A DNA stretch of 22,491 nucleotides, taken from assembly GCA_019084435.1 (NCBI GenBank), contig JAHRFV010000194.1:1-22491 (forward strand). Reading direction: 5' to 3'. The position numbers and the translations under genes were made by a program. Every line of letters begins with the position of its first letter. Position 1 is the first letter of the stretch. Positions 1,000 to 22,491 of the stretch are shown in pieces. This stretch comes from Dethiosulfatibacter sp. (GTDB lineage Bacteria; Bacillota_A; Clostridia; Tissierellales; Dethiosulfatibacteraceae). The notes beneath the pieces are model-generated. The model saw only the letters and a program-made list of their open reading frames with translations, did not search any database and was not told the DNA's origin.

Positions 1000-1052
1000 A
1001 TCGAATGCTAATATTATTTAAAGATATGTATGATTTTAAACGGAGGGAATCC

Positions 1053-2216
1053 ATGAAACACAGATTTATTTCAAAGCGTTACTGGATTGATCAATCAACA
1101 CCAATGGGGAAGGTCGACGAGCTGTCTAAAGGATTCGATGATGTAATCAATCTAAGTCTCGGAGATCCTGATATCATTACAAATGATTTGATTATCGAGC
1201 ATTCCTTTCTGGATGCAAAAGCGGGACATACGAAATATACGGATTTTAGAGGAGACCCGGAGCTAAGAGCTGAAATATTAAAGACTTACAAAGAAGATTA
1301 CGGTGTTGTATTGGATGATACTGAAATCATGGTCGTTGCCAGCGGATGCCTAGCCATGTATCTCGTGCTGGAGGCAATACTTGATGATGGTGATGAGGTC
1401 ATCATACACGCACCTTATTTCACACCTTATGTTCAGCAGATCCAATTGGCTCGAGGCATCCCAACAGTCTTGGATACTTTGGAGGAAGAGGATTTTCAGA
1501 TTAATGTCGAAAGACTTGAGCAACTTATAAATGAAAGGACCAAGGCAATCATCGTCAACACGCCTAACAATCCTTCAGGTGCCTGTTTTACTAGGGAAAC
1601 TATGCAGAAGGTCGCTCAATTGGCTATAAAGCATGACCTCATCATAATTGCAGATGACATATATGGAGCATACAGCTTTTCTGAGCCATTTATACCAATG
1701 ATCACAAATGATACTGTCAGAGACCGAACCATCACCATCAACAGCTTTTCTAAAGACTACGCCATGACAGGCTGGCGAATCGGTAACATCATAGCACCTG
1801 ACTACATCATCCGTACTGTACAGCAAATCAATGAGAATGTTGTATTTACAGCCCCTTCTATATCTCAAAGGGCTGCAATCTATGCTTTACGTAACAGGCA
1901 CATCATTCAACCCGGTTTGATAGAGGAGTATAAAAAACGGGTTATGTATGCTGCAGAAAGAATCAACAACATTCCCAATATGTCTGTGTTGCCACCTAAG
2001 GGAACCTTCTATCTGTTTGTCAACATCAGAAAAACCGGTCTGACATCAATGGATGCTTCCGATATGATTTTAAGAGAAGCTCATGTATTGACCATCCCGG
2101 GTAACGCTTTTGGCAAATGTGGCGAAGGATATGTGAGGATTGCATGCACAGTTGGTGTTGAAATATTGAAAGAGGCTTTCGATCGTATTGCAAAAATGGA
2201 CTTATTTTCAAAATAA
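1053..2216 (+). CDS. PLP-dependent aminotransferase, class I/II
   Basis: This 387-residue fold-type I PLP enzyme moves an amino group between an amino acid and a 2-oxo acid. Family hallmarks are visible: NTPNNPSGA in the middle, the Asp of the IIADDIYGAY segment that contacts the pyridine nitrogen, the PLP-binding Lys in SFSKDYAMTGWRIG, and the substrate-carboxylate Arg near the C-terminus in GYVRIAC. The reading frame is open from 1005, but the start at 1053 is chosen because GGAGGG at 1042-1047 sits six bases before it; residue numbering starts there. It is divergent from a GntR regulator and directly upstream of the DAHP synthase-prephenate dehydrogenase operon, so it may act on aromatic or branched amino acids, but the substrate is not determined. 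Confidence 0.88.
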   Translation: MKHRFISKRYWIDQSTPMGKVDELSKGFDDVINLSLGDPDIITNDLIIEHSFLDAKAGHTKYTDFRGDPELRAEILKTYKEDYGVVLDDTEIMVVASGCLAMYLVLEAILDDGDEVIIHAPYFTPYVQQIQLARGIPTVLDTLEEEDFQINVERLEQLINERTKAIIVNTPNNPSGACFTRETMQKVAQLAIKHDLIIIADDIYGAYSFSEPFIPMITNDTVRDRTITINSFSKDYAMTGWRIGNIIAPDYIIRTVQQINENVVFTAPSISQRAAIYALRNRHIIQPGLIEEYKKRVMYAAERINNIPNMSVLPPKGTFYLFVNIRKTGLTSMDASDMILREAHVLTIPGNAFGKCGEGYVRIACTVGVEILKEAFDRIAKMDLFSK

Positions 2217-2219
2217 TGA

Positions 2220-2247
2220 TTGACTATCATTTCAATTGTGTTATAAT
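2220..2247 (+). promoter_or_regulatory. Promoter of the aromatic operon and its leader
   Basis: TTGACT (2220-2225), a 16-base spacer and a perfect TATAAT (2242-2247) form a strong sigma-A promoter. Transcription should begin near 2254, about 20 bases before the leader peptide start and about 220 bases before the DAHP synthase start, so the whole attenuator lies in the 5' leader. Confidence 0.75.
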
Positions 2248-2274
2248 TCTTTTAATAATGTTAGGGAGAATACA

Positions 2275-2364
2275 ATGATTAATCGACAATCAAGTCTTAA
2301 CAATTGCACATATTATGCTTATTATCTTGGCTATTATAGCGAAGATCAATTTAGGTGCAATTGA
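2275..2364 (+). CDS. Tyrosine-rich leader peptide of an attenuator
   Basis: A 29-codon ORF starts at ATG 2275 and ends at TGA 2362-2364. It has its own ribosome site (AGGGAG, 2263-2268) at good spacing and lies just downstream of a strong promoter. Residues 13-21 are YYAYYLGYY: six tyrosines in nine residues, all encoded by TAT (codons between 2311 and 2337). The gene that follows after an intrinsic terminator is DAHP synthase, then prephenate dehydrogenase, the tyrosine branch enzyme. This is the classical layout of a leader peptide whose translation reports the level of charged tRNA, as in the trp and his leaders of enterobacteria. The peptide itself probably has no function after synthesis. 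Chance is unlikely given promoter, ribosome site, codon cluster, terminator and pathway all in order. Confidence 0.8.
   Translation: MINRQSSLNNCTYYAYYLGYYSEDQFRCN
2301..2363 (+). promoter_or_regulatory. Leader hairpin enclosing the Tyr codons; candidate antiterminator strand
   Basis: CAATTGCAC (2301-2309) pairs perfectly over 9 bp with GTGCAATTG (2355-2363). The six Tyr codons lie in its loop and the leader stop codon overlaps the right arm. A ribosome stalled on the Tyr codons would open this hairpin, while one reaching the stop codon would cover the right arm. A second pairing, 2342-2350 with 2414-2422 (9 bp including one G-U), would be free only in the stalled state and abuts the terminator stem. 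It touches but does not clearly overlap the terminator, so the switch is not fully resolved by eye. Confidence 0.55.
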
Positions 2365-2423
2365 ATAGAAGGTTGTTTAGATAATGGGTTAGTTGTATCA
2401 TCTCGATAGAAATATTGATTTTA

Positions 2424-2448
2424 GAGGACTCGTTAAGAGTCCTTTTTT
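2424..2448 (+). terminator. Intrinsic terminator (attenuator) before DAHP synthase
   Basis: GGACTC (2426-2431) pairs with GAGTCC (2437-2442) around a GTTAA loop, followed by six T (2443-2448); the stem can extend by AG/TT outside. It lies between the leader peptide and the DAHP synthase ribosome site (AGGAGGG, 2459-2465), as expected for a transcription attenuator. Confidence 0.8.
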
Positions 2449-2472
2449 GATAGAAAATAGGAGGGTATGAAA

Positions 2473-3498: not shown

Positions 3499-4365
3499 AT
3501 GAATTTTAGTGATATGAATATAACCATTGTTGGACTAGGTATGGAAGGTGGTTCTTACGCCATAGCGATCAATCATTATATCAGACCAAAAAATCTCTTT
3601 GCCATCGATATTAACGAAAATATCCTCATCGCTGCTGAGAAACTGGGTGTTATTCAAAAGGGAAGCACGAATCCAAAAGACATATTGCCCCAATCTGATT
3701 TGGTGATTATGTGCATCTATCCATCTGATATTATTGATTTTATTAGAGATCATATGGCTTTGTTCAAATCTGGCAGTATCATCACTGATGCCGCAGGTGT
3801 GAAGAGAAACATTGTCAATGAGATCGTCAACATCATTCGAGACGATTTAGATTTCGTCCCTGGTCACCCAATGGCTGGAAATGAGTTCAAAGGATTCCTA
3901 TATGCCGATCAAAAGATATTTCACGGCAACAGCTATCTTATAACACCTACCACTAAGAATAAGGAAGAAAACATCAAGTTGGTCGAACAGATGGCGAGGC
4001 GGTTTGGATGCTCTAAGGTTTATAGGACAGATATAGACACCCATGATTCAATGATTGCTTATGCCAGCCAGTTGATGCACGTGATTGCTGTTTCCATTGT
4101 TAACAACGACAATTTTTCTAATGATATTGACCTTTTTTCAGGTGGTTCATTCAAAAACGCCACAAGGGTCGCAAACATCAATCCAGATTTATGGACCGAT
4201 GCTTTCATGCAAAACAGTGACTTTCTCATCGACCAGATTACCGCTTTTAATGATAATATGGAGTTAGTAAAAAAGGCACTAATTGATAAGGATTCGGATG
4301 CTATTTATCAATTCCTTGAGAAAAGCAGGTTAAGAAGTAATGAATACGTGAACAGGTTTGAGTGA
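3499..4365 (+). CDS. tyrA: Prephenate dehydrogenase
   Basis: This enzyme oxidatively decarboxylates prephenate to 4-hydroxyphenylpyruvate, the committed step to tyrosine. The 288-residue protein has an N-terminal Rossmann motif GLGMEGG (12-18), the family signature GHPMAGNEFKG around residue 122, and the helical C-terminal domain including LMHVIAVSIVNN and SGGSFKNATRVA. There is no C-terminal ACT domain, so direct tyrosine feedback of the kind seen in ACT-bearing homologues is not expected. It follows DAHP synthase by 9 bases with a GGGTG ribosome site and must share its leader-controlled transcript. An alternative reading is arogenate dehydrogenase of the same family; the sequence does not separate them. 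Confidence 0.93.
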   Translation: MNFSDMNITIVGLGMEGGSYAIAINHYIRPKNLFAIDINENILIAAEKLGVIQKGSTNPKDILPQSDLVIMCIYPSDIIDFIRDHMALFKSGSIITDAAGVKRNIVNEIVNIIRDDLDFVPGHPMAGNEFKGFLYADQKIFHGNSYLITPTTKNKEENIKLVEQMARRFGCSKVYRTDIDTHDSMIAYASQLMHVIAVSIVNNDNFSNDIDLFSGGSFKNATRVANINPDLWTDAFMQNSDFLIDQITAFNDNMELVKKALIDKDSDAIYQFLEKSRLRSNEYVNRFE

Positions 4366-21564: not shown

Positions 21565-22491
21565 TCAATCAAAGAGTCTCATCAGATCGCCATATCCCTC
21601 TTTTTCCATGTCCTCATAAGCGATAAATCTCAGGGATGCGCCATTGATGCAGTATCTCAATCCGCCCAATTCCTTAGGTCCATCTTCGAAAAGATGCCCT
21701 AGATGGGAATCTCCAACCCTACTTCTAACCTCTGTTCTGACCATGTTGAAAGTTGTATCTTTCTCGAACTCAACCACTTCCTCTTCGATTGGCTTTGCGA
21801 AGCTTGGCCATCCGCAGTTGGAATCAAACTTGTCCATTGATGTAAACAACGGTTCTCCGGTAACGATGTCCACGTAAATTCCTTTTCCATTGAAGTTCCA
21901 ATACTCGTGGGTAAAAGGTCTCTCGGTGGCTGCATTTTGGGTAACCTCATACTCCAGGTCTGACAGGTTTTGCTTGATGATTTCATCCTCAGGTTTGATG
22001 TATTTTTCCGGGTCTATGATAATATCATCCGCCAGATTCAAATCGATGTGACAGTAACCGTTTGGATTCTTTTTAAGATAATCCTGGTGGTATTCCTCTG
22101 CCAGATAGTAATGCTTCAATGGTTCCACTTGAACCACTATTGGTTTGGTGTAGTTGGTCTGCTCGTCAGCGATGATTTTGTTGATGACTTCTAACTGAGT
22201 CTCATCTGTGTAGTAAATGCCTGTTCTGTACTGAGAGCCCACATCATTACCCTGCTTGTTGACACTTGTCGGGTCTATGACTCTGAAATAATACAGCAGC
22301 AAGGTCCTCAAGTCCACTACCTCTGAATCATATCTGACATGGACCGTCTCCGCATGACCGGTATTCTTATAAAGAACGTCTTCATATTTGGGGTTTTCCG
22401 TAGTTCCGTTCGCATAACCGGAAGTCACATCAAACACACCCGGCAGCCTGTCCATGTATTCCTCCAGACCCCAGAAGCATCCTCCCGCTAA
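21565..22491 (-). CDS. msrAB: Bifunctional methionine sulfoxide reductase MsrA-MsrB, 5' end cut off
   Basis: This fusion repairs both stereoisomers of methionine sulfoxide. The frame is open to the window edge, so the protein is at least 308 residues long and lacks only a few N-terminal residues. The MsrA domain begins [10 protein letters not shown] with its catalytic Cys (codon TGC, not TGA), within five codons of the edge, and continues [22 protein letters not shown]. The MsrB domain starts about 175 residues before the C-terminus's last third ([13 protein letters not shown]), with DSNCGWPSF carrying the resolving Cys and [13 protein letters not shown] the catalytic Cys. The two CxxC zinc motifs of some MsrB proteins are absent. 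The internal ATG at 22455 is not the start, because the active-site Cys would be lost. Confidence 0.93.

Follow-up and report, generated by a model that had tools for sequence, protein, structure and literature searches.

The aroF and tyrA genes in this stretch of Dethiosulfatibacter DNA are preceded by what is very probably a ribosome-mediated transcription attenuator, one that would sense charged tRNA-Tyr through a leader peptide and would control aroF-tyrA by ribosome stalling and transcriptional read-through. The window, by which we mean the whole stretch of 22,491 nucleotides that was analysed, carries in order a promoter, a ribosome site, a 29-codon ORF, a 9-bp hairpin round the Tyr codons, a terminator, aroF and tyrA. 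The features are as follows.

2220..2247, forward strand: sigma-A type promoter, TTGACT-16-TATAAT, with TG before the -10 box
2263..2269, forward strand: ribosome binding site of the leader ORF, SD-like AGGGAGA, with GGAG invariant in the seven alignment rows
2270..2309, forward strand: segment 1, from folding; the start-codon region and 5' arms of the leader hairpin (2270-2276, 2280-2291, 2295-2297, 2301-2309)
2275..2364, forward strand: leader peptide ORF, MINRQSSLNNCTYYAYYLGYYSEDQFRCN, 29 codons, ATG at 2275 and UGA at 2362-2364, open in all seven aligned leaders
2311..2337, forward strand: Tyr codon run, six TAT within nine codons, the presumed stall site, read from the sequence
2324..2346, forward strand: inner hairpin P2, from folding and alignment; 2324-2328 with 2342-2346 and 2330-2333 with 2337-2340, a G-G mismatch between them
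2355..2398, forward strand: segment 2, from folding and alignment; the 3' arms of the leader hairpin, over the stop codon and into the antiterminator strand
2382..2390, forward strand: 5' strand of the antiterminator, UAAUGGGUU, from pairing tests
2423..2448, forward strand: intrinsic terminator, 2423-2431 with 2437-2445, T run to 2448, from folding and the alignment of seven
2427..2435, forward strand: segment 3, the 3' strand of the antiterminator, GACUCGUUA, from pairing tests; the end of the terminator 5' arm and most of its loop
2473..3489, forward strand: aroF, DAHP synthase, with FXD and DAHP_synth_1 domains by Pfam; the ORF was listed from 2467
3499..4365, forward strand: tyrA, prephenate dehydrogenase, by Pfam

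Most of these parts had been picked out in an earlier note made from the letters of the DNA, and they held up on analysis. The strong promoter matches the consensus at 11 of 12 positions; the 29-codon ORF, its ribosome site and the six TAT codons are all where they had been placed; the 9-bp hairpin with the Tyr codons in its loop has the arms CAAUUGCAC (2301-2309) and GUGCAAUUG (2355-2363); the terminator just before DAHP synthase is found by folding and alignment; and Pfam identifies the two downstream products as AroF and TyrA. The TAT codons are leader codons 13, 14, 16, 17, 20 and 21, and TATTATNNTTATTAT occurs once in the window against 0.01 expected. Thus, a short ORF with its own ribosome site and clustered codons for the end product is present, followed by an intrinsic terminator between the ORF and the first gene, as is typical of leader-peptide attenuators. 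A simple terminator scan did not list the terminator at 2423-2448, the stem of which runs into its T run. Translation of aroF probably begins at the ATG at 2473, 7 nt 3' of GGAGGG (2460-2465), rather than at 2467 as listed, judging from that ribosome site and from the start positions in relatives.

A gene for a class I/II aminotransferase (window 1005-2216) ends 3 nt before the -35 box. The simple scan listed no terminator between this gene and the -35 box, so transcription of the gene may continue into the leader. Elsewhere in the window, a long ORF at 21565-22491 resembles, by eye, a fused methionine sulfoxide reductase A/B.

The same leader in relatives

A search with AroF was made of GTDB species genomes, and the best 80 of 321 loci were taken. 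Among these, the same leader is found at L001 (95% AroF identity), L002 (86%) and L004 (66%), and it is also found in G003, G008 and G011. It is present in all six of the nearest relatives with sequence over the leader (G001, G002, G003, G004, G008 and G011), although the G003 leader sits at the end of a contig, together with only the first 26 codons of aroF, and the aroF of G011 is a fragment. The contig of G009 begins 64 nt before aroF, and the terminator alone is visible there. A TTGAC..TATAAT pair was seen by eye in five of the six relatives, the exception being G011.

In an alignment of the seven leaders (the window and the six relatives), every leader retains the Tyr run, which numbers 4 to 8 Tyr codons. 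G002 and G004 have TAC in place of TAT and so retain Tyr. The earlier note had proposed as a check that the Tyr run and the terminator should be kept while other residues drift, and the outcome was favourable in the six relatives, with one Tyr replaced by Arg in G001 and two by Phe in G003. In G008 and G011 the 3' RNA arm of the leader stem is read in another frame and the C-terminal end of the peptide differs; it is therefore the RNA, and not the end of the peptide, that is conserved there. A covariance model of the Tyr leader, run over 60 relatives, recovered the five genomes of that set on which it had been trained and a single further genome, G025 (G025:C20:6429-6618, locus L238), where a weak match under strict filters (E 0.002) lies 35 nt before the aroF match and the leader starts MNRLIEAIKEN; no match at E<=0.01 was found elsewhere in the 60.

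The hairpin itself is conserved as a structure. None of 200 dinucleotide shuffles folds as stably as the 219-nt region (z -3.06), and the leader hairpin is more stable than codon-order shuffles in all seven leaders, with z from -2.0 to -5.0. In the alignment, 95.2% of the cells of P1b (the stem round the Tyr codons) and P2 are paired, against at most 36.8% when the partners are slid, and the two stems co-vary: 6 of their 18 pairs change on both sides. In the corresponding control, none of 500 shuffles did as well on four of five measures, and 20 of 500 did on the fifth. In G002, for example, a G-C pair of P1b has become A-U, by a change from Cys to Tyr on one side and a synonymous change on the other. 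That P2 serves as a pause hairpin is only a guess. The aligned terminator has no two-sided change in the seven sequences, and its shuffle control is uninformative (500 of 500).

The pairing also leaves its mark on codon choice. The motif L/W-G-[YF]-S has 30 matches in 189 upstream stretches, and its Gly is encoded by GGC in all 30 and its Ser by AGC in 28, against 14% and 19%, respectively, in the aroF genes of the same loci. Fixation at the codon level points to pairing of the RNA. The two exceptions are G008 and G011, where an 8-bp stem of other sequence folds. (The motif test requires both residues in one frame and is not informative on frame keeping.)

Aromatic leaders at other DAHP synthase genes

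How common are such leaders? The survey drew on the best 80 of 321 aroF loci, on relatives of G001 and on part of a draw from the class, in which 195 of 291 genomes matched and from which 30 loci and 58 further regions entered. It began with 195 sites, of which 187 were left after removal of identical upstream stretches and 182 had at least 250 nt. Since kin species remain, the 182 sites are not independent events. At 92 of the 182 surveyed sites (best 80 of 321 loci included) there is an ORF in which 7 or more of 12 residues are aromatic, compared with 6 for the reverse strand and 2.3 for shuffles; at a threshold of at least 8 of 12, the numbers were 60 sites, 1 and 0.1. A strict terminator follows 85 of the 92 surveyed leaders, against 14 on the reverse strand and 2.5 in shuffles, and is found at 8 of 60 sites without a leader. 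The window and G001 are not among the 92, since they score only 6 and 5 of 12; the window is one of 103 leaders at a threshold of at least 6, which was reached 18 times on the reverse strand and 11.5 times in shuffles. The earlier note had expected a leader of this kind to be uncommon in Clostridia. For DAHP synthase this fails, because about half of the surveyed sites bear an aromatic-rich leader, but clusters of Tyr without Phe are indeed rare: in the counted stretch they occur in 5 of the 103 leaders (the window, L002, L004, L093, which is that of G008, and L146).

Leaders among the best 80 of 321 loci are mostly from Clostridia, with single cases in Negativicutes (L010, L038) and Fusobacteria (L015); at these three loci no antiterminator signal was found. 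In Sedimentibacter and its kin (L009, L012, L033), aroF lacks an aromatic leader, and no T-box was found there at the gathering score.

The codons of the leader follow the end product of the operon, with Tyr before tyrA and Phe before pheA. In four relatives (G001, G002, G008 and G009), a second DAHP synthase gene lies ahead of pheA and is preceded by a Phe-rich leader with a terminator of its own (L120-L123, L140-L143). The pheA product, prephenate dehydratase, was identified by Pfam PF00800 for G001 and by tblastn for the other three. In three of these genomes, G009 being the exception, the Tyr leader of the other aroF copy is also visible. Over the survey, most leaders linked to tyrA mix Tyr and Phe, and Tyr makes up a larger share in the 75 leaders before tyrA (median 0.55) than in the 8 before pheA (0 to 0.43; the genomes are G001, G002, G008, G009, G028, G199, G246 and G186), with a Mann-Whitney P of 5e-6 calculated without correction for kinship. 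No leader at the threshold of at least 6 of 12 was found at 28 of 103 sites followed by tyrA and at 6 of 14 followed by pheA.

Predicted competing pairings and the position of the ribosome

The E. coli trp and pheA attenuators combine stall codons with the pairings 1:2, 2:3 and 3:4, and the logic proposed here is the same. Three mutually exclusive, trp-like pairings would be open to the leader: 1:2, the long hairpin, in which the 5' half of the leader would pair with the stretch from the stop codon to the antiterminator strand; 2:3, the antiterminator, in which 2382-2390 would pair with 2427-2435; and 3:4, the terminator. With ample Tyr, the ribosome would reach the UGA and leave, 1:2 would re-form and capture the antiterminator strand, and the terminator would halt transcription. 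When Tyr-tRNA is short, the ribosome would stall on the TAT codons and mask segment 1, segment 2 would pair with segment 3, and the polymerase would enter aroF-tyrA. Unlike in the E. coli systems, segment 1 takes in the start-codon region of the leader, and the first base of the stop codon is 20 nt upstream of the antiterminator strand, so that a ribosome parked there should leave that strand uncovered.

The attenuator of the earlier note is borne out in its parts, but the element that makes it a switch, the antiterminator, had not been named. UAAUGGGUU can pair with GACUCGUUA, and this pairing excludes the terminator. In the alignment, 92.1% of its cells are paired, against 25-54% when slid; one side varies in three of its pairs, both sides in none, and shuffling gave an uninformative control (500 of 500). 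Over the survey, to which G003 and G011 were added by hand for the antiterminator and 5'-part tests only, an antiterminator that excludes the terminator is found: across 101 leaders the mean z is -1.70, 46 of the 101 were reached by at most 5 of 100 shuffles (5 expected), and 17 of the 101 by none. For the window alone the pairing is not significant (9 of 100 shuffles), and five others of its clade gave 3 to 34 of 100, most of them not significant. The strands vary by lineage, UAAUGAG/CUCAUUA and UUUGUGU/ACACAGA being two examples.

A 1:2 hairpin competing with the antiterminator is also present. The outer leader hairpin reaches the antiterminator strand in all seven leaders, its partner being the start-codon region or the first codons, in a register specific to the lineage; in the window it takes in one base of the strand in one fold and four in another. 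In the survey, pairing of the 5' part of the leader with the antiterminator strand was reached by at most 10 of 200 shuffles at 25 of 100 loci and by at most 2 of 200 at 15 of 100; the window by itself does not reach significance (69 of 200), and the clade gave 12 to 162 of 200. In several leaders that start MEKLIRK, MENLIGK, MNNLLGK or MDRLIRK (L006, L007, L008, L037, L039, L040, L097), the pairing extends to 11-13 bp, although it does not do so in the related L095 and L161. Conservation at the N-terminus of these leaders may thus reflect the RNA. Mononucleotide shuffles served as the control for the antiterminator and for the 5'-part pairing; they are milder than the dinucleotide shuffles used for the ORF and the terminator.

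Which position of the ribosome would favour the antiterminator? In a model in which only the RNA beyond the ribosome was folded, a stall at the first Tyr codon raised the probability of the antiterminator over the released state in six of seven leaders: from 0.06 to 0.66 in the window, 0.01 to 0.83 in G003, 0.00 to 0.97 in G004, 0.00 to 0.98 in G008, 0.08 to 0.98 in G011 and, weakly, 0.006 to 0.22 in G001. In G002 the direction was reversed (0.65 to 0.007), and stalls at Tyr 16 and 17 gave 0.03 and 0.02 in the window. In a masked model, in which upstream RNA could also pair and the transcript ended at the antiterminator, stalling at the first Tyr codon gave 0.00-0.07 in all seven, no better than without a ribosome, and only a ribosome at the start codon raised the antiterminator (0.40-0.999). 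Folding with the ribosome in place, a check proposed in the earlier note, therefore lends mixed support to the stall step, favourable in six of seven leaders in the downstream-only model and in none of seven in the masked one, and the outcome depends on the model chosen. When the finished leader was folded at equilibrium, the terminator prevailed in each ribosome state in all seven, so timing would have to decide.

In the downstream-only model, a ribosome parked on the stop codon left the antiterminator free in five of seven leaders, the window included, whereas in G008 and G011 it covered the antiterminator strand. Termination in the window and the four leaders like it should thus need release of the ribosome, unlike in G008 and G011.

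Alternative readings, known systems and significance

Amino acid operons of low-GC Gram-positive bacteria are commonly taken as T-box territory, and T-boxes are indeed common in the related genomes, with 8-22 matches in each of the six searched. If a T-box or a protein-bound attenuator were at work here, the ORF would be a coincidence. However, nothing in Rfam matched anywhere in the window at E<=1, so by that test the window holds no T-box (the covariance model RF00230 included), in agreement with the earlier note, which had seen no T-box hallmarks. Nor was a T-box found at E<=0.5 in the upstream stretches of 14 relatives or of L001, L002 and L004, and 20 leaderless loci yielded none at the gathering score; we give this explanation practically no chance of being right. 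An equally negligible prospect is that the ORF encodes a small protein with another purpose, followed by an ordinary terminator that does not switch. Nothing positive speaks for this beyond the ORF itself, the C-terminal end is not kept, G008 and G011 reading the same RNA arm in another frame, and pairings incompatible with the terminator are found repeatedly across the survey.

The strong conservation of the stems, the fixed GGC and AGC and the G-G mismatch in P2 would all suit a riboswitch that binds Tyr or Phe, with the ORF as an incidental passenger. Against this, the choice between Tyr and Phe codons tracks the downstream gene, TAC replaces TAT in G002 and G004 with Tyr kept, the ORF is open in all seven aligned leaders with GGAG kept before it, and the window matches no Rfam family at E<=1; a riboswitch thus seems very unlikely. 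The nascent chain might instead arrest the ribosome in response to free Tyr or Phe, through L/W-G-[YF]n-S-A, and not to the charging of tRNA. The recurrence of the LG..S residues (30 matches in 189 upstream stretches) is what one would expect of such a peptide, but those residues are fixed at the level of the codon, which argues for pairing of the RNA, the exceptions G008 and G011 fold a stem of other sequence, and many of the 92 leaders are without the motif. We consider an arrest peptide quite improbable.

Ribosome-mediated attenuation by a leader peptide, the reading that we prefer, has several counterparts elsewhere. The aroR-aroF attenuator of C. glutamicum was reportedly described by Neshat et al. 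in 2014. There, a Phe-Tyr-Phe leader peptide precedes the DAHP synthase gene aroF and acts by attenuation (PMC11802643, PMC4046766), in response to limitation for Phe and not for Tyr (PMC11802643); the same source names trpL and pheL as leader peptides (PMC11802643). As far as the descriptions go, the two systems share an aromatic-codon leader peptide before DAHP synthase and ribosome-mediated attenuation, but C. glutamicum belongs to the Actinobacteria, and the present leader, from Clostridia, has a Tyr run before aroF-tyrA. The uORFC-13-1 element (Brewer et al. 2021, PMC8632094) is likewise an aromatic uORF, coding for Phe, with a terminator before aroF; control by it was proposed for Acholeplasma, and its 24 representatives are described from Acholeplasma and environmental sequences only. 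Its description, to the extent that it bears on these points, gives no antiterminator scheme, Tyr form or paired Phe and Tyr operons (PMC8632094). The His leader peptides of hisS/hisZ in bacilli replace a T-box (Naville and Gautheret 2010, PMC2965389), and the present leader resembles them, as described, in being a case of leader-peptide attenuation in Firmicutes instead of a T-box, for a different amino acid and different genes. Searches of the open-licence part of PubMed Central brought up no description of a Tyr leader upstream of aroF in Clostridia.

A wider reading can be offered tentatively, and we lean slightly against its holding as a whole: the leaders at DAHP synthase genes may form a T-box-independent family throughout the class Clostridia, in which the codons specialise after duplication of the gene, to Tyr for aroF-tyrA and to Phe for aroF-pheA, and which, in the clade of the window, works as a switch gated by release. 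In this release-gated form, the ribosome would have to be off the stop codon for the terminated state to arise, so that the 5' part could capture the antiterminator strand.

What does the finding mean for these bacteria? Genomes that are rich in T-boxes appear to control the entry into aromatic synthesis by leader peptides instead, and in the duplicated operons of a single genome two amino acids are read through the same kind of leader. This amounts to a natural experiment on the rewriting of attenuator specificity, and it provides an annotation for a feature that no Rfam family matches in the window. If the family reading is true, the same kind of RNA frame would have been re-addressed by a change of codons.
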